Origin: Mesorhizobium onobrychidis
GTDB taxonomy: Bacteria > Pseudomonadota > Alphaproteobacteria > Rhizobiales > Rhizobiaceae
Direction of reading: 5' to 3'
Length of the DNA stretch: 64,000 nucleotides
NCBI RefSeq assembly: GCF_024707545.1
Contig: NZ_CP062229.1
Location: 2,213,501 to 2,277,500 of the forward strand
Positions within the stretch are counted from its first letter, which is position 1, and the number at the start of each line of letters is the position of its first letter. The notes beneath the pieces are model-generated. The model saw only the letters and a list, made by a program, of their open reading frames with translations, had not been told where the DNA came from and made no database searches. The position numbers and the translations under genes are program-made. Shown here piece by piece: positions 23,348 through 30,100 of this stretch.

Positions 23348-23391
23348 TGGTAGCGGGAGAGGGACTTGAACCCCCGACCCCAGGATTATGA
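23348..23391 (-). other. Candidate attachment site: 3' half of a tRNA-Met(CAT)
   Basis: On the minus strand this reads anticodon CAT, then AATCC, a T-arm GGGGGTTCAAGTCCCTC, acceptor TCCCGCT and ACCA. The 5' half of the tRNA is absent; upstream sequence belongs to the integrase side. A tRNA 3' end next to an integrase gene is the classic signature of an integration site. The intact tRNA gene expected at the other end is not in this window. Confidence 0.75.
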
Positions 23392-23452
23392 TGCTTGGTC
23401 CTGACGTTGATTTCGTTGTCGAAATCGGTCCTTTGTCGCATCTATGTCGCGT

Positions 23453-24685
23453 TCAACCCAAAAGCGCCCGTTCTGCTGCAGCCATTTCGTCGGCGTCATC
23501 GCCGCGCGGGAACAGGTGCCCGTAGACGTCCATAGTCATCACGATCGAGCTATGCCCGAGCCGTTCCTGGATGACCTTCGGTGGAAGGCCGAGCCCGCCG
23601 TCTTGCGGCCGATTGATCAACCATGATGCATAGAAATGGCGCAGGGCGTGCATACCTCCATACTTGGCAACCATGACGACTTTCCCGTCCTCCGTTCGTT
23701 CTTCGCTCGCTACGGCCACGCCTGCCGATAGCTGAGTTGGTAGGAATCCGCGCTTGGTGATGTTCGATCGGCCTTCGATGTTGCCGCTCCCAGTCGGGAA
23801 CACGTAGTGAAGTTCCTTCACAGGAGTCCCGTCCTGATCTGTAGATGCGCGGCGAGGGCAGGCAACTTTCCATTCTCTTAATGCGCTGATGACCGCCGGC
23901 GGCACCGGGATTGTCCTTTCACCTGCTTCAGACTTCGGCCGGCCGATCACTCCATAGTCGTCCGCTCGCTGGTGCACGCTGATCTGCGCGTGCTCCATGT
24001 CCACGTCGCTCCACCGCAGCCCGCGCAATTCGGATGATCGCATTCCCGTAAAGACCGCAGTGATCATCAGCGGGCGCCAGCGGCCTGTAGCCGCGCCTAT
24101 GATGGCCTTGATTTCCTCGCGAGTTGGGATGTCGATCCCGACCTTCAGCTTGCCCTTCTTGCGTTTGTCGGCCTGGCGCTCTTTGCCCCTTCGCCGGGTG
24201 CCACGCAGATCTCTGACGGGATTGCGCGTAGCCAGGCCGCGTTCCTGCGCGTCCGATAGAATCGCACCTAGCGAGCCGAGGATCTTCCGAACCATCACCT
24301 GTGAGCGGTTTTTTTCGCGGAGTTTGTCCGCGAACTCGCGCACGGCCGGGACCGTAAGTTGGGATAGCAGGGTCGCCCCGATGAACGGCTCGATGTGAAG
24401 TTGCAGGTGGCGCTTGCGCTGGTCGATCGAGGAACGCTCGAGTCCGTCATTTACGCCCGTCGCAATCCAGAAAGCTCCAGCCGCCTTCACGGTGACGCTC
24501 GCGCTGTCGGCAACGTGAACACCCTCGCGGACCTCGACCTTGGCTGTCGCACCGAAACCGTCGGCGTCCTTTTTCTTCGCGAAGGTCTTCAGTCGGCGAA
24601 CGCCTTTGCCATCGGCGTAGTCGACCACCCAGGCGGTTTTCTCCTCGCCCTTGCCGTTAGTCCAAGTGCGCTTACGAATCGACAT
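23453..24685 (-). CDS. Tyrosine site-specific integrase
   Basis: Inserts and excises the element, 410 aa. N-terminal arm-binding region (MSIRKRTWTNGKGEEKTAWV, a common prophage integrase start), SAM-like core-binding domain, then the catalytic domain with Arg in TGMRSSELRGL, HALRHFYASW, GHSSIVMTMDVYGH and the nucleophile Tyr in DVYGHLFP. All catalytic residues are present. Reads toward the att site, and begins 4 bp after the stop of the repressor gene, so the two are co-transcribed. Confidence 0.95.
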   Translation of the reverse strand: MSIRKRTWTNGKGEEKTAWVVDYADGKGVRRLKTFAKKKDADGFGATAKVEVREGVHVADSASVTVKAAGAFWIATGVNDGLERSSIDQRKRHLQLHIEPFIGATLLSQLTVPAVREFADKLREKNRSQVMVRKILGSLGAILSDAQERGLATRNPVRDLRGTRRRGKERQADKRKKGKLKVGIDIPTREEIKAIIGAATGRWRPLMITAVFTGMRSSELRGLRWSDVDMEHAQISVHQRADDYGVIGRPKSEAGERTIPVPPAVISALREWKVACPRRASTDQDGTPVKELHYVFPTGSGNIEGRSNITKRGFLPTQLSAGVAVASEERTEDGKVVMVAKYGGMHALRHFYASWLINRPQDGGLGLPPKVIQERLGHSSIVMTMDVYGHLFPRGDDADEMAAAERALLG

Positions 24686-24688
24686 GGG

Positions 24689-25294
24689 TCAGGGCTTCCA
24701 TTCGGGGAGCGGAAGGTCCGATGAATTCGACTGCTCCCCCGTCTCCCTTTCGAGTTTCAACCGTTCCTTGATGTGCCGATCCTGCTCCTCTTCGGACATC
24801 TCGCTCCACTCTTTGCGGCGAGGCGGCGGCAGAGCAAACTTCTCCGACCGTCCCGTCAACTCCAATGATCGGCGCTCCTCGTCGTCGTATTCTGGCATCG
24901 CGTCCTGGGCTGCCTCGTAGTTCTTTTCGTCTTCGCGCGAGCGATATGCCTGCCACATTCCCATAATGCTTTCGCGCGTCTCCAAATCGACGCCCGTAAC
25001 ACGGCCTGAGACAATTCCTTCAACTGTCTCCTCGAATTTCGAAACGAACTCGTCAATGCGGGGGTCGGATGTCCCAGCCCTAAGAATCGCCATCATCTCC
25101 GCAAGGTCATTCAAACGAGTGTCTATCGGCCATTGCTCTGGAAACTCCTGCTCCAGCACGCGCACGATTTCCGTATTCATCGATCGACCGTGACGCTCGG
25201 CATAAGCCTTTATTCGATCTCGTAGGCCTGCCGGCAATCGAACCTGAAAACGCTCCGCCAACTGGCTTGGGTATTTCTGCTCATCGTCATCCAT
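24689..25294 (-). CDS. Arc-type ribbon-helix-helix DNA-binding protein
   Basis: 201 aa. The N-terminus QLAERFQVRLPAGLRDRIKA, then HGRSMNTEIVRVLEQEFP, is an Arc/MetJ-like ribbon-helix-helix domain; the rest is acidic and helical, with a Glu/Arg-rich region (EWSEMSEEEQDRHIKERLKL). Its ATG lies 9 bp from the first of three palindromes in the divergent promoter region, so autoregulation and control of the rightward genes is likely. The long acidic tail is unusual for Arc proteins and may be an anti-repressor or oligomerisation surface. Confidence 0.85.
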   Translation of the reverse strand: MDDDEQKYPSQLAERFQVRLPAGLRDRIKAYAERHGRSMNTEIVRVLEQEFPEQWPIDTRLNDLAEMMAILRAGTSDPRIDEFVSKFEETVEGIVSGRVTGVDLETRESIMGMWQAYRSREDEKNYEAAQDAMPEYDDEERRSLELTGRSEKFALPPPRRKEWSEMSEEEQDRHIKERLKLERETGEQSNSSDLPLPEWKP

Positions 25295-25302
25295 TCCCTA
25301 TG

Positions 25303-25385
25303 GATGCAACTTGCACCCAAAAAATGCAAGGGTGCAACTTGCACCTATGCCTATCAAATCGTATATTGTGGGTGCAACTCGCACC
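25303..25385. promoter_or_regulatory. Triple palindromic operator array
   Basis: Three 15-bp sites: GATGCAACTTGCACC (25303-25317), GGTGCAACTTGCACC (25331-25345) and GGTGCAACTCGCACC (25371-25385). The consensus GGTGCAA-C-TTGCACC is a perfect palindrome about its centre. Centres are 28 and 40 bp apart. Site 1 is 8 bp from the repressor start; site 3 is 20 bp from the first rightward gene. This is the layout of a phage-like repressor switch; binding by the ribbon-helix-helix protein is inferred. Confidence 0.82.
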
Positions 25386-25405
25386 TATCGGTACGAAGGA
25401 CACAG

Positions 25406-25600
25406 ATGAACAATCCAGCACAGCCGGCGATCGACCTTGTTTGGGGCGCCGTCGAAATCGGAAAAGAGATCAACCGGAAGCCCCGCCAGACCTTTCACAT
25501 GCTCGAAACGGGTCTCTTGCCTGCCAAGAAGGTGGGTAATCAATGGGTAGCCGAGCGCGGCAAGCTGCGGGCTTTCTTCCTCGGCGAGGAAGCCGCATGA
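25406..25600 (+). CDS. Small helix-turn-helix protein (excisionase/AlpA-like), 64 aa
   Basis: Start ATG at 25406 with GAAGGA upstream. Reads AVEIGKEINRKPRQTFHMLE then LLPAKKVGNQWVAERGKLRA, the pattern of a MerR/AlpA-type winged helix that reads a promoter or att arm. First gene right of the operator array; could be the excisionase or the switch activator. Confidence 0.72.
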   Translation: MNNPAQPAIDLVWGAVEIGKEINRKPRQTFHMLETGLLPAKKVGNQWVAERGKLRAFFLGEEAA

Positions 25601-25794
25601 GCGCCGCCGACCTCTCGCCGCCGGAGCACGAGACAAGTGCCATCGTCGACGAGGCGGCCGCTTGGTATTTCGAGAACTTCCGCACTTGTGAGCGGCCGAT
25701 CGTGCCGGCGCTGCGCCAGCGATTCGGCCTCACGAGTCATCAGGCGATTGTTGCCATTCGCCAAGTGACGCTGATGCGGGCCCGCGCGGCATGA
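25597..25794 (+). CDS. Small hypothetical protein with possible DNA-binding helix (65 aa)
   Basis: Starts at ATGA overlapping the previous stop. Reads AAAWYFENFRTCERPIVPAL then RQRFGLTSHQAIVAIRQVTL, suggesting a helix-turn-helix. Translationally coupled to both neighbours. Often seen as a small early gene in Mesorhizobium prophages, from memory. Confidence 0.65.
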   Translation: MSAADLSPPEHETSAIVDEAAAWYFENFRTCERPIVPALRQRFGLTSHQAIVAIRQVTLMRARAA

Positions 25795-26300
25795 GCCCTC
25801 CCAAGCCTGGAAAGATCGCTGCGCAGTTCATGGCGCACAAGCGAGAGATGCGCCTTTCGCCAGCATGGAAGGCGCTACGCGGAAACGACAAGCTGCTGCT
25901 CGAACGGCTCGAGGAAGAGCACATGGCGCACGCGGGAACGACCGACGTTCTCCCGGTCACCTTCTCCGACTTTGAGGAGTGGGGTGTTCGTCGTGCCGCT
26001 ATCGCCGAATGCATCGCCCGTGTCGAAGCCCTTGGCTTTGTCGAATGCATCGAGCGGGGCCGAGCCTCCAAGGCCGAGCATCGCTTCCCTACGAAATATC
26101 GCCTCACCTATGCGCACGGTCCCAAGGTGAGGGTTACTGACGAGTGGGCAAAGGTTGTGGACCAGGAAGACGCTCAAAGGCGGATAGATGCCGCGATTGC
26201 TGGCCTGCAAGCGCGGTCGTCGGCACTGAGCATAAAGCTGAAAAGGAGTGCGGAACTGCGGGCAGAACAAAGGGCCTTGCAGGGGAGAAAAGCGGCATGA
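25791..26300 (+). CDS. Possible replication or DNA-binding protein of the element (169 aa)
   Basis: Reads KPGKIAAQFMAHKREMRLSP, VTFSDFEEWGVRRAAIAECI, VEALGFVECIERGRASKAEH and TKYRLTYAHG: a winged-helix pattern of recognition helix followed by a basic strand. The C-terminus is a charged helix. ATGA overlap with the previous gene. Followed at once by short direct repeats, so a role as initiator binding them is possible but not shown. Confidence 0.6.
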   Translation: MSPPKPGKIAAQFMAHKREMRLSPAWKALRGNDKLLLERLEEEHMAHAGTTDVLPVTFSDFEEWGVRRAAIAECIARVEALGFVECIERGRASKAEHRFPTKYRLTYAHGPKVRVTDEWAKVVDQEDAQRRIDAAIAGLQARSSALSIKLKRSAELRAEQRALQGRKAA

Positions 26301-26311
26301 CCGGATTTTTT

Positions 26312-26418
26312 GCCAGTGCGGTTTTCGCCACCAAAGCCAGTGCCGAAATCGCAACCAATAGAGCCAAAAGCCAGTGCGGAAAACGTTACTACAGCGCTGG
26401 TAGCGGAAACGTCACTAC
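26312..26418. repeat. Iteron-like direct repeats between element genes
   Basis: Three copies of GCCAGTGCSG (26312-26321, 26336-26345, 26370-26379) and a second pair GGAAAACGTTACTAC (26378-26392) and GGAAACGTCACTAC (26405-26418). A short frame (26297-26452, 51 codons, ATGA-coupled to the previous gene) crosses them but its repetitive sequence looks non-coding. Could be a replication origin or operator cluster. Confidence 0.6.
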
Positions 26419-26441
26419 TATCTATATCTCGGGAGGGATCG

Positions 26442-26723
26442 ATGAACATTGAGCCTGCCGCCTGCAACGTGATCGTCTTCCCTCTGGTCCGCCGGGTAGG
26501 CAAGGTGCGCGACGTCGCCCGCAAGATGCTCGACAAGTCGACCGACCGCCACGCCGATTCCTACCGAGACCAAGTGACGACCGCGCTGCTCGGGCACATG
26601 ACCCGCGTCGGCATCCCTGATCAAGAACAGGACGAGCAACTCGGCGCCTTCTGGTCGGCCGTCGACGCCGAGATGACGCGCCAGACCTATCGCGGCAGTC
26701 GGCCAGGAGACAGCGCGGCATGA
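26442..26723 (+). CDS. DUF6074 family protein (93 aa)
   Basis: GGGAGGG precedes the ATG at 26442. NVIVFPLVRRVGKVRDVARK, then GHMTRVGIPDQEQDEQLGAF, match the DUF6074 pattern (VIxFPLxRRxGKxRDVA) common in rhizobial phages and islands. Function unknown; the arginine-rich start suggests nucleic-acid contact. Confidence 0.75.
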   Translation: MNIEPAACNVIVFPLVRRVGKVRDVARKMLDKSTDRHADSYRDQVTTALLGHMTRVGIPDQEQDEQLGAFWSAVDAEMTRQTYRGSRPGDSAA

Positions 26724-26908
26724 GCGACCGTATCGAAGCCCTACCGCAGCAAGACGCGATTATCGTCGAGGTCGATGACGACAGCCTCGCCATTTCGCAA
26801 AAGGACTCGGGCGACGGCAGCGAATATCGCATCGCCATTTTCAGCAAGGCCGGCGTCGACGCCTTAATCGAGGCGCTGAAGAAAGCCCGCGAGTCCATGC
26901 ATGGCTGA
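26720..26908 (+). CDS. Small acidic hypothetical protein (62 aa)
   Basis: ATGA overlap with the DUF6074 gene. Reads DAIIVEVDDDSLAISQKDSG then AIFSKAGVDALIEALKKARE: strand-strand-helix, acidic. No family recognised. Confidence 0.6.
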   Translation: MSDRIEALPQQDAIIVEVDDDSLAISQKDSGDGSEYRIAIFSKAGVDALIEALKKARESMHG

Positions 26909-27056
26909 ATCCGCCTACCGCAGCGCCGCCGTCTGGATCGAGCAATCGCTGGCCAGCCTCGCCGAAGCCGTCGAGCAGATGCCGGACGAGCGGTTCCTAG
27001 GCGAGCACCAGGCCGCGCACGATGAGCGGCGCTCGCCCGAAGGCCGCGACGAATGA
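26901..27056 (+). CDS. Small hypothetical protein (51 aa)
   Basis: Starts inside the previous gene's last codons and ends in an ATGA overlap with the next gene. Reads SAYRSAAVWIEQSLASLAEA then MPDERFLGEHQAAHDERRSP. The two tight overlaps support it as a real coupled gene; function unknown. Confidence 0.5.
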   Translation: MAESAYRSAAVWIEQSLASLAEAVEQMPDERFLGEHQAAHDERRSPEGRDE

Positions 27057-27358
27057 GCGACAAAATGCGCCGCTATCGTGCTCGCCGAGCCGCCGGCAAG
27101 GTCGTGCTGTCGGTTGAGGTGGACGACGTCGACCTGGCCGAGAGGTGGGTCGAGGCCGGCTTTCTATCCAGACGGCTTGCCGACGATCGCCAGGCGCTGA
27201 AAGAGGCAGCGGAGCGGTATCTGGCCGGCGCGAGAGCCGGCCGAGCGCGAAAGGTGATCAGCGCCCTTCCTGGCCTTGCCAAGCGGATGTGGCGCGAGCG
27301 GCATATGGAGCAGCCGAACAATCCCCCGCACATCGTGCCGATGCGGAGGCGGGCATGA
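27053..27358 (+). CDS. Small basic protein, MRRYRxRR family (101 aa)
   Basis: Starts MSDKMRRYRARRAAGKVVLS, then VDDVDLAERWVEAGFLSRRL, and ends in a basic tail with HIVPMRRRA. A paralogue at 28175 shares the N-terminal basic box, a VDxxxxAE strand-helix and AGFL. Such proteins are frequent in alphaproteobacterial mobile elements; role unknown, possibly DNA-binding. Confidence 0.65.
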   Translation: MSDKMRRYRARRAAGKVVLSVEVDDVDLAERWVEAGFLSRRLADDRQALKEAAERYLAGARAGRARKVISALPGLAKRMWRERHMEQPNNPPHIVPMRRRA

Positions 27359-27393
27359 TAGCGGCCTATTGCTCGGTAAACGAGCCGGATGAT

Positions 27394-27603
27394 TCAGCCC
27401 GTGCCGGCGGGATCGATCTTCGTCAGCCGCTCTTTGGCCTTGACCAGACGCCGTTGCGCAGACCGTATGCTATCGCACAACGCGACACCGACGACGGCGC
27501 CGCAGTCCTGGTCCAGCAACCTATTCGCGCGTTTGAGAGAGGTCTCAGCTCGTTTGATGCGCAGCCTGGCCTCAGCCCGTTCCAAGTTAAAAAAATCAAG
27601 CAT
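27394..27603 (-). CDS. Possible small helical protein, opposite strand (69 aa)
   Basis: From ATG 27603: MLDFFNLERAEARLRIKRAE, TSLKRANRLLDQD, then SIRSAQRRLVKAKERL. Strong heptad-like helix pattern, but no clear ribosome-binding site, and it opposes the direction of its neighbours. The plus strand here has a longer frame with poor composition. Confidence 0.4.
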   Translation of the reverse strand: MLDFFNLERAEARLRIKRAETSLKRANRLLDQDCGAVVGVALCDSIRSAQRRLVKAKERLTKIDPAGTG

Positions 27604-27813
27604 TGTTCCGCATTCGAGGTTGCAGCAGTCCCTTCAATGGACCAACCCCTGCAGATCGCTTTGGTTCCTGCGACGTATTGGCCGCTCACACCAATAAAGG
27701 GGGGCGTGTCGACAACCCAAAATCGAAACGGGCGCCGGAACCGCCGAGGGCTTACGCGCAGAATTTTTTTCCCCCGATCGAATATTTCGGCCTGAATAGG
27801 GATTTCACGATAG

Positions 27814-28170
27814 ATGACCACAACCTCACCAGCCTCTAACCCGCAGGTTTCCGGCATTCCACCTATCCCGAGATGGCTGACGCGGGCTGAAAAGGCAGCG
27901 TTCAGGCGCATTGCAGAGCAGCGAAATGCTGCCGGCCGGCCAGTTTCGATCGCAGAAATCGATGCGCTGGCCGACCTCGTGACGCTGCGCAGCCGGATAG
28001 CGGACACTCGGAAGATTTACAGTTACGCCATTGCCCAACTGAAGAAAAACCCGGCGTGGAGGAGCGACCAAGCCCTCGCTCTCACTACAAGCCGCCAGAT
28101 CGATGCCCAGACCGCGCGGGCGCAGCGCATGGCATCAGATCTCGGCCTGTCGAGCGGTTCCGAAGGCTGA
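27814..28170 (+). CDS. Possible phage terminase small subunit (P27-like), 118 aa
   Basis: Reads IPPIPRWLTRAEKAAFRRIA, VSIAEIDALADLVTLRSRIA, then TTSRQIDAQTARAQRMASDL. The order PxPxWLTxAEKxxFxRI, helix with ALADLV, and a late helix ending DLGL fits small P27-type terminase subunits, which select DNA for packaging. No large subunit follows. The assignment is by pattern only. Confidence 0.5.
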   Translation: MTTTSPASNPQVSGIPPIPRWLTRAEKAAFRRIAEQRNAAGRPVSIAEIDALADLVTLRSRIADTRKIYSYAIAQLKKNPAWRSDQALALTTSRQIDAQTARAQRMASDLGLSSGSEG

Positions 28171-28174
28171 TCGC

Positions 28175-28390
28175 ATGTCAGCGGCCGATCGCATGCGTCG
28201 ATATCGGGAGCGCCAGCGCAATGGGCGCCGGCCGCTGCTGATCGACGTCGACGAGGTCGCGGTCGCTGAATACCTGATCGCTGCCGGCTTCTTGCCACCA
28301 TGCAAGGCGGAAGACCGCAACGCCATCCGCACGGCTGCCGAAAGCAGCGCACGATTTCCCGCCGGACTAATCTTAGCCGATGCCGCCTAA
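28175..28390 (+). CDS. Small basic protein, paralogue of the 27053 gene (71 aa)
   Basis: Reads MSAADRMRRYRERQRNGRRP, then LLIDVDEVAVAEYLIAAGFL and KAEDRNAIRTAAESSA. Same box order as the 27053 product: MRRYRxR, VDxxxxAE, AGFL, then DRxA. Starts 4 bp after the terminase-like stop. Confidence 0.65.
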   Translation: MSAADRMRRYRERQRNGRRPLLIDVDEVAVAEYLIAAGFLPPCKAEDRNAIRTAAESSARFPAGLILADAA

Positions 28391-28491
28391 GCCGGGGCAC
28401 GTAGGCGTCCTGTAATGGGTCAATACGCCTTGGCACCGCGATTGCATGGTCAGCTACGCCGGGTGTTGGGACCGGCATTGGGGCGATGGGG

Positions 28492-28526
28492 CCTCGCCGC
28501 TTCGCGAATGGAGCGGCGAGGTTTTT
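28492..28526 (+). terminator. Intrinsic terminator at the end of the element's gene run
   Basis: CCTCGCCGCT/AGCGGCGAGG perfect 10-bp stem, 10-nt loop, followed directly by TTTTT. Oriented to stop the rightward transcript of the element. Confidence 0.7.
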
Positions 28527-28656
28527 CATTCAGCCATCAGCCTCTAAGGCAGCTCGACAGCCGATCCGGAGTGACGAGAGGCCGCCAAGATAATCCTGCA
28601 CATCGATCCTGAGAAAGACCCCGAGCGGGGGCGGCTGTCTTCCCCGAGTTCTCCCG

Positions 28657-28857
28657 CTACCGGTTGACCAGCCACAGAATAATCGAGAGCACGATGCTGA
28701 TCAGGATCCCGGTGGCGATCGGAACATAGAACGTGAAGTTCTCACGCTCGATCACGATATCACCAGGCAGTCGGCCAAGGCCGATCCGTGACAACCACGG
28801 CCACAATAGGCCCACCGCAACTATGATGAGACCAACGACAATCAGGGTTCGCGACAT
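28657..28857 (-). CDS. DUF2905 small membrane protein (66 aa)
   Basis: Two membrane spans (TLIVVGLIIVAVGLLWPWLS and IATGILISIVLSIILWLV) flank the family hallmark LGRLPGDIVIERENFTFYVP. Complete. Function unknown; found across bacteria. Confidence 0.88.
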   Translation of the reverse strand: MSRTLIVVGLIIVAVGLLWPWLSRIGLGRLPGDIVIERENFTFYVPIATGILISIVLSIILWLVNR

Positions 28858-29740: not shown

Positions 29741-30100
29741 ATGAGTAAGCGCGCCGGGGACCGGCTGGAGTTTATCGAGCCGTTACTGCCGACCCTGGTC
29801 GAGAAGCCGCCCGAGGGAGGCGACTGGATCCACGAGGTCAAGTTCGACGGCTACCGCTCGCAGATCGTGATTGACGACGAGGGCGTTCGCATTTTCACGC
29901 GCCGGGGTCTCGATTGGAAGGCAAAATATCGCGACCTGACCGCAGCGGCAAAACTGCTTGGTGTCGAAAGCGCCATCATCGACGGCGAAATCATCGTACT
30001 CAATGAGGCTGGCCTGTCAGACTTTCGTGCATTGCGGTCAGCTATCACCCGCCGGCAGCACGACCTCTATTTCGTCGCTTTCGATGGACGAGAGCCATGA
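29741..30100 (+). pseudogene. ATP-dependent DNA ligase (LigD-type), N-terminal fragment
   Basis: Starts MSKRAGDRLEFIEPLLPTLV and includes the nucleotidyl-transfer motif HEVKFDGYRSQI with its catalytic Lys, then AIIDGEIIVLNEAGLSDFRA and LYFVAFD before a premature stop. Only the first third of the ligase domain remains. A second, more decayed copy lies at 50.64 kb. Confidence 0.8.

Follow-up and report, generated by a model that had tools for sequence, protein, structure and literature searches.

The compact row of phage-type genes beside a tRNA-Met fragment in Mesorhizobium onobrychidis raises the question of whether it is a self-contained phage satellite of about 5 kb, as the initial annotation had proposed, or a part of something larger. 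The row lies at positions 23348-28526 of a 64,000-nucleotide stretch (the window), which corresponds to positions 2213501-2277500 of the 7.3-Mb genome contig NZ_CP062229.1. The analysis suggests, with a probability put at even or a little better, that the segment is one arm of a compact, phage-derived element of satellite type, with genes for integration, regulation, replication and packaging recognition, and that it stands at the left end of a 62.4-kb island.

The limits of the unit were given by two copies of an attachment (att) sequence. The 45 bp at window positions 23348-23392 (minus strand) repeat without mismatch, on the same strand, the 3' end of a tRNA-Met gene that lies intact at genome positions 2299295-2299371 (start at C1:2299295, or 85795 if the window is extended). 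The tRNA-Met 3' part beside a complete integrase had been described correctly by the initial annotation, and the intact gene that it suggested looking for to the right is present, 62.4 kb away. Since the two att copies are separated by this distance, the second lying outside the window, and no third or inner copy was found when the window was extended to 92.5 kb, the region at 28.5 kb included, the boundary proposed for a satellite of about 5 kb was wrong. The sole candidate for a right end of such a 5-kb element was a 12-nt inverted match to the tRNA-Met 3' end just past the terminator (28650-28661), which was rejected for its wrong orientation and is possibly due to chance, about 0.4 such matches being expected by our own estimate. 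A close pair of TGTCGC repeats was located beside the left att copy (23434 and 23445; 23434-23450) and another at the far end (85648 and 85660 in extended-window coordinates), as expected of the arm sites of one integrase, and the repeats may have this role. The right-end stretch beside tRNA-Met was also conserved in genomes G077 and G040. No structural phage genes were found in the module with Pfam and PHROG profiles, and in the 62-kb unit none of the matches listed (25 of 41 Pfam and 25 of 37 PHROG families) was to a family of large terminase, portal, capsid or tail proteins. Both results agree with the initial annotation, for which structural genes beyond the window in the same unit would have spoken against a satellite. 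Among the same matches, the gene set of a complete prophage (large terminase, portal, capsid, tail and lysis) was not found between the att copies.

The integrase is a tyrosine recombinase of 410 aa (23453-24685, minus strand; Pfam Phage_integrase 4e-16, PHROG integrase 4e-66) whose gene reads toward the tRNA-Met fragment. Next to it is a 201-aa Arc-type ribbon-helix-helix repressor (24689-25294, minus strand; Pfam Arc 1.5e-12), which is divergent from a row of small genes across three near-identical palindromes (approximately 25302, 25330 and 25370; 25302-25388) that are probable operators, an arrangement already recognised in the initial annotation. A script was set to detect 15-nt palindromes with symmetry at 12 or more of the 15 positions that occur as three copies inside 120 bp with no more than 3 mismatches. 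In the window it detected this array alone, and it detected none in 20 dinucleotide-shuffled versions of the sequence. The first gene of the row encodes a 64-aa protein (25406-25600, plus strand) in the position of an excisionase (Xis), a function that it may have; its relatives stand beside integrase and repressor in 9 loci. The second encodes a conserved 65-aa protein (25597-25794, plus strand), the most widely shared gene of the group (9 of 13 clustered elements, window included). Palindromes between repressor and Xis-position gene were found in 6 of 8 relatives by the script and in the remaining two (L047, L048) by eye. L048, which has the closest repressor head (70.6% identity over 51 aa), carried three close variants of the window motif GTGCAASTTGCAC, whereas six relatives with repressors 36-49% identical had operator motifs other than that of the window. 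The palindrome type of relatives, ATATCCATTGGATAT, is unlike the window palindromes at 25302-25388, and the repressor of L045 was unmatched by the window repressor. Judged from the comparison of L048 with the six relatives, repressor and operator appear to go together.

A putative replication segment follows. A 169-aa Rep-like protein (25791-26300, plus strand), to which this function is assigned provisionally, has behind it the iteron-like repeats noted in the initial annotation, GCCAGTGC in three copies at 26312, 26336 and 26370 (26312-26385), a possible replication origin. Three copies of this repeat also follow the gene in ORS3359 (L068), where the Rep-like protein is 82% identical with a ratio of nonsynonymous to synonymous substitution (dN/dS) of 0.06, and in Jiella (L069). 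The repeat AAAAGCCAGTGCGGAAA occurs three times behind the Rep-like gene in Jiella, with more worn copies in ORS3359 and the window, and Tianweitania has other repeats in this place. A 93-aa DUF6074 protein (26442-26723, plus strand; Pfam 5e-25) comes next. The Rep-like and DUF6074 genes were also adjacent in two other places. One, an element on pSymB of Sinorhizobium meliloti Ak57 (L154), reads integrase, AlpA, Rep-like, DUF6074, then HNH, RecQ-type helicase and DUF3427, and is possibly a defence-carrying relative; the other, the Methylobacterium indicum plasmid pVL1_6 (L155, 31.5 kb), has the pair together with an Arc-type regulator and a tape-measure gene. No Rep-like relative was confirmed in IMG/VR, and the phage collection gave no match to DUF6074, to the 65-aa protein or, at E 1e-30, to the window integrase.

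The 118-aa product of 27814-28170 (plus strand) had been proposed as a possible small terminase subunit (TerS), a proposal that a fold unlike any TerS would have undone. Structure prediction gave a fold that matches HK97 TerS. Its sequence differs from that of the HK97 small terminase (P27/Terminase_4 type), with 14-16% identity; the match to the PHROG terminase small subunit reached 3e-4 only and that to Pfam Terminase_4 reached 0.088, with 13.7 bits below the curated cut-off of 24.7. The product is accordingly described here as TerS-like with a predicted HK97-type small-terminase fold. Genes like it were present in G066C1, G055C3, G137C21, G273C1 and G356C9. G137C21 also has a P27-type TerS gene (PHROG 3e-26), which has a relative in G197C26, and two TerS candidates were picked by eye that had no PHROG family match (an 84-aa ORF in G066C12 and a 209-aa ORF in L165). 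TerS relatives were not confirmed in IMG/VR, not found in the genome contigs collection and had no match in the phage collection.

Searches with these genes gave relatives in many genomes. The window integrase was found in 30 of 146 genus genomes (E 1e-60), the window TerS in 4 of 146 genus genomes (1e-3) and 5 of 394 family genomes (1e-5), and the Rep-like protein in 18 of 394 family genomes (1e-8), with the own genome included in each count; a tail-tip gene was found in 19 of 146 genomes (1e-20) and its neighbour in 11 of 394 (1e-15). A total of 44 loci (16 + 9 + 7 + 12) were examined for flanking direct repeats. Seventeen had att-like direct repeats of 21-66 bp, 10.0-18.1 kb apart, and all of these except G356C9 were at tRNA genes: G066C1, G066C12, G020C2, G055C3, G137C21, G341C1, G197C26, G273C1 (a 29-bp and a 20-bp match split by one mismatch), G177C1, G252C14, G403C11, G356C9, G103C1, L160, L161, L165 and L166. 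The other 27 were left uncounted for lack of a long repeat, ends at contig borders, inspection over 20 kb only, being full prophages, or as named exclusions, namely G308 as a duplicated segment (repeated stretches of 622 and 438 bp, 13.8 kb apart) and, for distance, G042 (23 bp, 7.8 kb) and G329 (69 bp, 5.9 kb). Integrase loci outside the 44 were those of G077 (36.8 kb), G080 (contig end), G145 C28 (6.1 kb) and the tRNA-Phe site of the own genome, G000 (5.4 kb). As the fetched stretches were 8-54 kb long, larger units would be missed.

At least one gene was shared with the window module by 16 of the 17 repeat-bounded elements, the exception being L166 with nothing but a weak integrase match. 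The gene order recurred in subsets (Xis position, 65-aa, Rep, DUF6074, 51-aa, opposite-strand gene, TerS, 71-aa). In G197 and G273 a TerS-type gene stood without a recognised structural gene behind it, as in the window; because the recognised phage-type genes of these two end at TerS, the left arm of the window may be complete. Capsid proteins were found in G020C2, G341C1 and L161 and tape-measure proteins in G055C3, G341C1, G356C9, L160, L161 and L166, those of G341C1 and L161 being open and aligning with their families over almost the full length or at the two ends; G177C1 and G403C11 had no TerS, capsid, tape-measure or tail-tip match in the family scan. Four of 70 proteins from the first nine elements matched a 'portal' PHROG among the matches listed, and the three alignments inspected covered 47-85 positions near the family end only, which is not a portal fold. 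Four large-terminase profiles had no match in the 62-kb unit of the window or in any of the 17 elements, and the phage controls feeding three of the profiles were recovered, but this negative is weak since the profiles missed G035, G036 and G022, which are taken as full prophages, and phrog_2 missed the G077 prophage. All phrog_2 matches in the genomes searched were outside compact elements.

Several of the compact relatives carry tail genes that look shortened. A tail-tip protein of 573-580 aa with a partner of 229-238 aa was present in G066C1, G020C2, G055C3 and G103C1. Full-length tail-tip matches occurred at 10 loci in 146 genomes, at 573-649 aa in seven and at 1214-1239 aa in three. Among the seven short ones, the same four were repeat-bounded, G119 and G015 had a compact layout with no repeat found, and G018 was on a 7.9-kb contig. 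No partner gene was detected in the sequence fetched for the three long loci, of which G035, the sole one gene-listed, reads by eye as a full siphovirus-like prophage. The tape-measure proteins of L160, L161 and L166 (541-608 aa) aligned in two stretches with long families of 752-900 positions, L161 with the start of one family and the end of another, and the 495-aa protein of G055C3 aligned in two separate parts with its 1534-aa counterpart in the G035 phage; from these split matches the tape measures look like phage proteins with the middle shortened. In the survey of the tail partner (L156-L167; 12 loci, 11 genera), all loci but one had a tape-measure-sized ORF of 501-648 aa before the partner gene; PHROG confirmed the ORF in L160, L161 and L166, and in the others it was assigned by size, place or BLAST. 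The 209-aa ORF of L165, by eye like the 27814 product, takes the place of the tape-measure ORF, and a tRNA gene was nearby in 10 of the 12 loci. The tail partner ('tip+1') had been considered as a mark of compact elements only, which was weakened by the inclusion among the 12 of a locus with portal, large-terminase match and capsid-like genes. The partner was not confirmed in IMG/VR and had no match in the phage collection. The shortened genes suggest that satellites may shorten or re-tip the tails of their helpers; we know of no other satellites that bring their own short tape-measure or shortened tail-tip protein.

Several results weigh against a satellite. The att copies are not at the distance of a satellite and no inner copy marks a smaller unit. 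In G077 the same tRNA-Met is occupied by a 78% identical integrase, a repressor, an Xis-position gene, a TerS of another type, portal, major head and tail proteins, and then ligase-type genes up to tRNA-Met, with 36.8 kb between att copies. This prophage means that the site is not satellite-specific and that prophage decay has to be taken seriously; the occurrence of some of the same genes in compact repeat-bounded elements fits the satellite idea of the initial annotation. At tRNA-Met, G040 has a 1.3-kb remnant. The own genome (L050:12800-18167, C1 at approximately 1.66 Mb) has a 5.4-kb unit between two 50-bp tRNA-Phe copies, with an integrase 62-65% identical and a few cargo ORFs, and G145 C28 (L049:5453-11566) has a similar unit of 6.1 kb. 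The gene sharing is partly circular, most loci having been retrieved by searches with genes of the window, yet G103C1, L160, L161 and L165 were found via a tail gene and have early genes in common with the window. Several compact relatives retain capsid or tail genes and could be shrunken prophages, L162 of the tail-partner survey is a phage-like cluster with portal and large terminase, and the large-terminase negative carries the weakness given above.

A defective prophage at tRNA-Met, which lost the structural genes from just behind TerS and received island genes in their place, is considered the less likely but a serious rival; the initial annotation had already named a prophage without its right part as the alternative. 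On this reading the compact relatives are decaying prophages as well. It would agree with the fuller version in G077, with the presence of integrase C-terminal pieces only in G040 and G048 (in the stretches read), with units that range from 1.3 to 62 kb, with the truncated tail-tip gene of G137C21 and with a capsid-like ORF in L160 that is by eye shorter than that of L161. Against decay, compact elements with much the same reduced layout recur in several genera, where tRNA sites and integrase types differ; the tail-tip ORF is 573-649 aa long in seven of ten close loci and 1214-1239 aa in three; and the capsid and tape-measure genes of G341C1 and L161 are open. The dN/dS values (0.06-0.43 in 28 pairwise comparisons of 8 gene sets) are well below 1 and point to genes kept by selection through most of their history, which is not proof of present function; synonymous distances exceeded 1 in many pairs, near saturation, and the ratios may date from full-phage ancestors, a further point against the satellite. 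The reduced plan at many tRNA sites and in many genera, together with the shortened tail genes, favours a real compact kind over independent decay, and the compact relatives are regarded as candidate phage satellites that look like a new group. Against their 10-18 kb, the 62-kb unit of the window has probably become an island by gain of cargo and may no longer be packaged.

The cargo itself allows another explanation, judged improbable: that a phage-type integrase drives a plain 62-kb stress island, moved by passive transduction or a helper integrative and conjugative element (ICE), with TerS as an idle leftover. About 57 kb of the unit is cargo, mainly of stress type, which begins in the window (28527-64000: CBS, a short ATP-dependent ligase ORF, OsmC, SelR, a MASE4 kinase, BrkB, DUF892 and GLF), runs on beyond it to tRNA-Met and also includes Mn catalase, KaiC, ligases and sensor kinases. 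Against this, the operators, iterons and TerS gene appear intact, and relatives of them exist in other genomes. No relaxase was among the listed 25 of 41 Pfam families of the cargo, and no relaxase or type IV secretion gene was among the ORFs seen. The biggest ORF called there encodes 543 aa, too small for a conjugation ATPase, which is typically larger. Mesorhizobium ICEs and integrative and mobilizable elements (IMEs) are reported beside tRNA-Met, and tRNA-Met(a) is named as a tripartite-ICE site, in PMC8627217. The unit resembles these in its tyrosine recombinase, tRNA-Met site and large cargo and differs in having no recognised conjugation or relaxase gene among the listed Pfam families.

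The cargo holds one further phage-type integrase; this second tyrosine recombinase is probably the ORF at 75966-76598 of the extended window, outside the window, and may mark another insertion. Two ATP-dependent ligase ORFs were located at 29741-30100 (119 aa only) and at 73474-74316 of the extended window, and ligase-type genes were seen by eye near related elements in G077 and G137. Small genes at approximately 80-84 kb resemble right-end genes of compact elements in G066 and G137, and may be merely common island genes.

The remaining genes of the module were called, as in all gene lists, with a home-made caller. They encode a 62-aa ORF product (26720-26908, plus strand; from the ORF list), a 51-aa protein (26901-27056, plus strand) with relatives in G066C12, G137C21, G015C46, G103C1 and L068, a 101-aa protein (27053-27358, plus strand) that groups in clustering with the product of 28175-28390, and a 71-aa protein after TerS (28175-28390, plus strand) with a relative after TerS also in G137C21. 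A 69-aa gene on the opposite strand (27394-27603, minus strand), absent from the list of the initial annotation, was recognised because a relative with 49% identity occupies the equivalent place in G137C21; that copy in turn has likenesses at the equivalent place in L068 (by eye) and G015 (71%). The module closes, as initially annotated, with an intrinsic terminator hairpin (28487-28526, plus strand; -28.6 kcal/mol, z -4.9, 0 of 200 shuffles as good). A consensus scan with a loop limit of 8 nt did not list this hairpin and gave 5 terminators in the region against 4.8 expected, no excess. A promoter scan found 0 sigma-70 promoters, no Rfam feature was found within the module and ARAGORN found no tRNA gene within the window.

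Read as the arm of a satellite-type element, the module would work in the following way, the role of each step being inferred from gene content, repeats and the predicted fold. The Arc-type repressor, bound to the three palindromes, would silence the divergent operon until it is relieved by stress or by a helper phage. The integrase, together with the 64-aa Xis-like protein, would then cut the unit out at the tRNA-Met repeats, replication would start with the opening of the DNA at the iterons by the Rep-like protein, and the HK97-type TerS would mark the element DNA for the large terminase of the helper. Full siphovirus-like prophages such as that of G035 are possible helpers. A region of the own genome at approximately 3.213 Mb of C1 (L140) matched large terminase in pieces and contains an ORF that by eye is portal-like.

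Among the closest known systems are the phage-inducible chromosomal islands (PICIs), which include the Staphylococcus aureus pathogenicity islands (SaPIs). In PMC6092414, PICIs are defined by a conserved organisation of integrase, replication and master-regulator genes, an att site never occupied by a prophage, no structural or lytic genes, a size of about 12-15 kb, and induction and packaging by a helper. The module has this organisation, with integrase, divergent repressor, putative replication module and TerS, and it has no structural or lysis genes, nor does the rest of the unit among the matches listed. It differs in its att site, which is also used by the G077 prophage, in an att pair 62.4 kb apart and in its Arc-type repressor; the comparison is one of gene plan, with PICI-specific genes outside it. 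Capsid-forming PICIs (cf-PICIs), as defined in PMC10690885, carry their own capsid, protease, portal, connectors, large and small terminase and HNH genes and depend on the helper for tails. The module has the TerS-like gene only of this set, and no large-terminase match was found in the 62-kb unit. Some relatives resemble cf-PICIs in having capsid and protease genes (G020C2, G341C1) or a capsid gene (L161), whereas the relatives have no recognised portal or large terminase and carry tail-tip or tape-measure genes. The small Pseudomonas phage-like element of the AH14a/AH14b pair also has no structural genes and is induced with a full prophage; according to PMC4936722 the genes are different ones (AlpA, P4-like primase), and DNA of AH14b was found experimentally in particles. 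No description of satellites in Mesorhizobium, Rhizobiales, Alphaproteobacteria or rhizobia was found in the full-text literature, as judged on titles and abstract openings with incomplete journal coverage, which is weak evidence of novelty.

Tentatively, and with somewhat less than even confidence, we propose that Rhizobiales hold an undescribed and widespread family of satellites of 10-18 kb. Its members would occupy many tRNA genes, draw on a shared pool of early genes and several kinds of TerS, have neither large terminase nor portal, and often carry a short tape measure of their own or a shortened tail tip with a conserved partner, re-engineering the tail of the helper rather than its head; the window would hold a TerS-only arm of this family in a 62-kb stress island. 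The survey yields concrete loci for excision and packaging tests. If the compact elements are satellites, soil and symbiotic bacteria would have a further family of them, with tail parts as a possible new route for the hijacking of phages, and the window would show how the arm of a satellite can come to serve a large stress-gene island as its mobility end.

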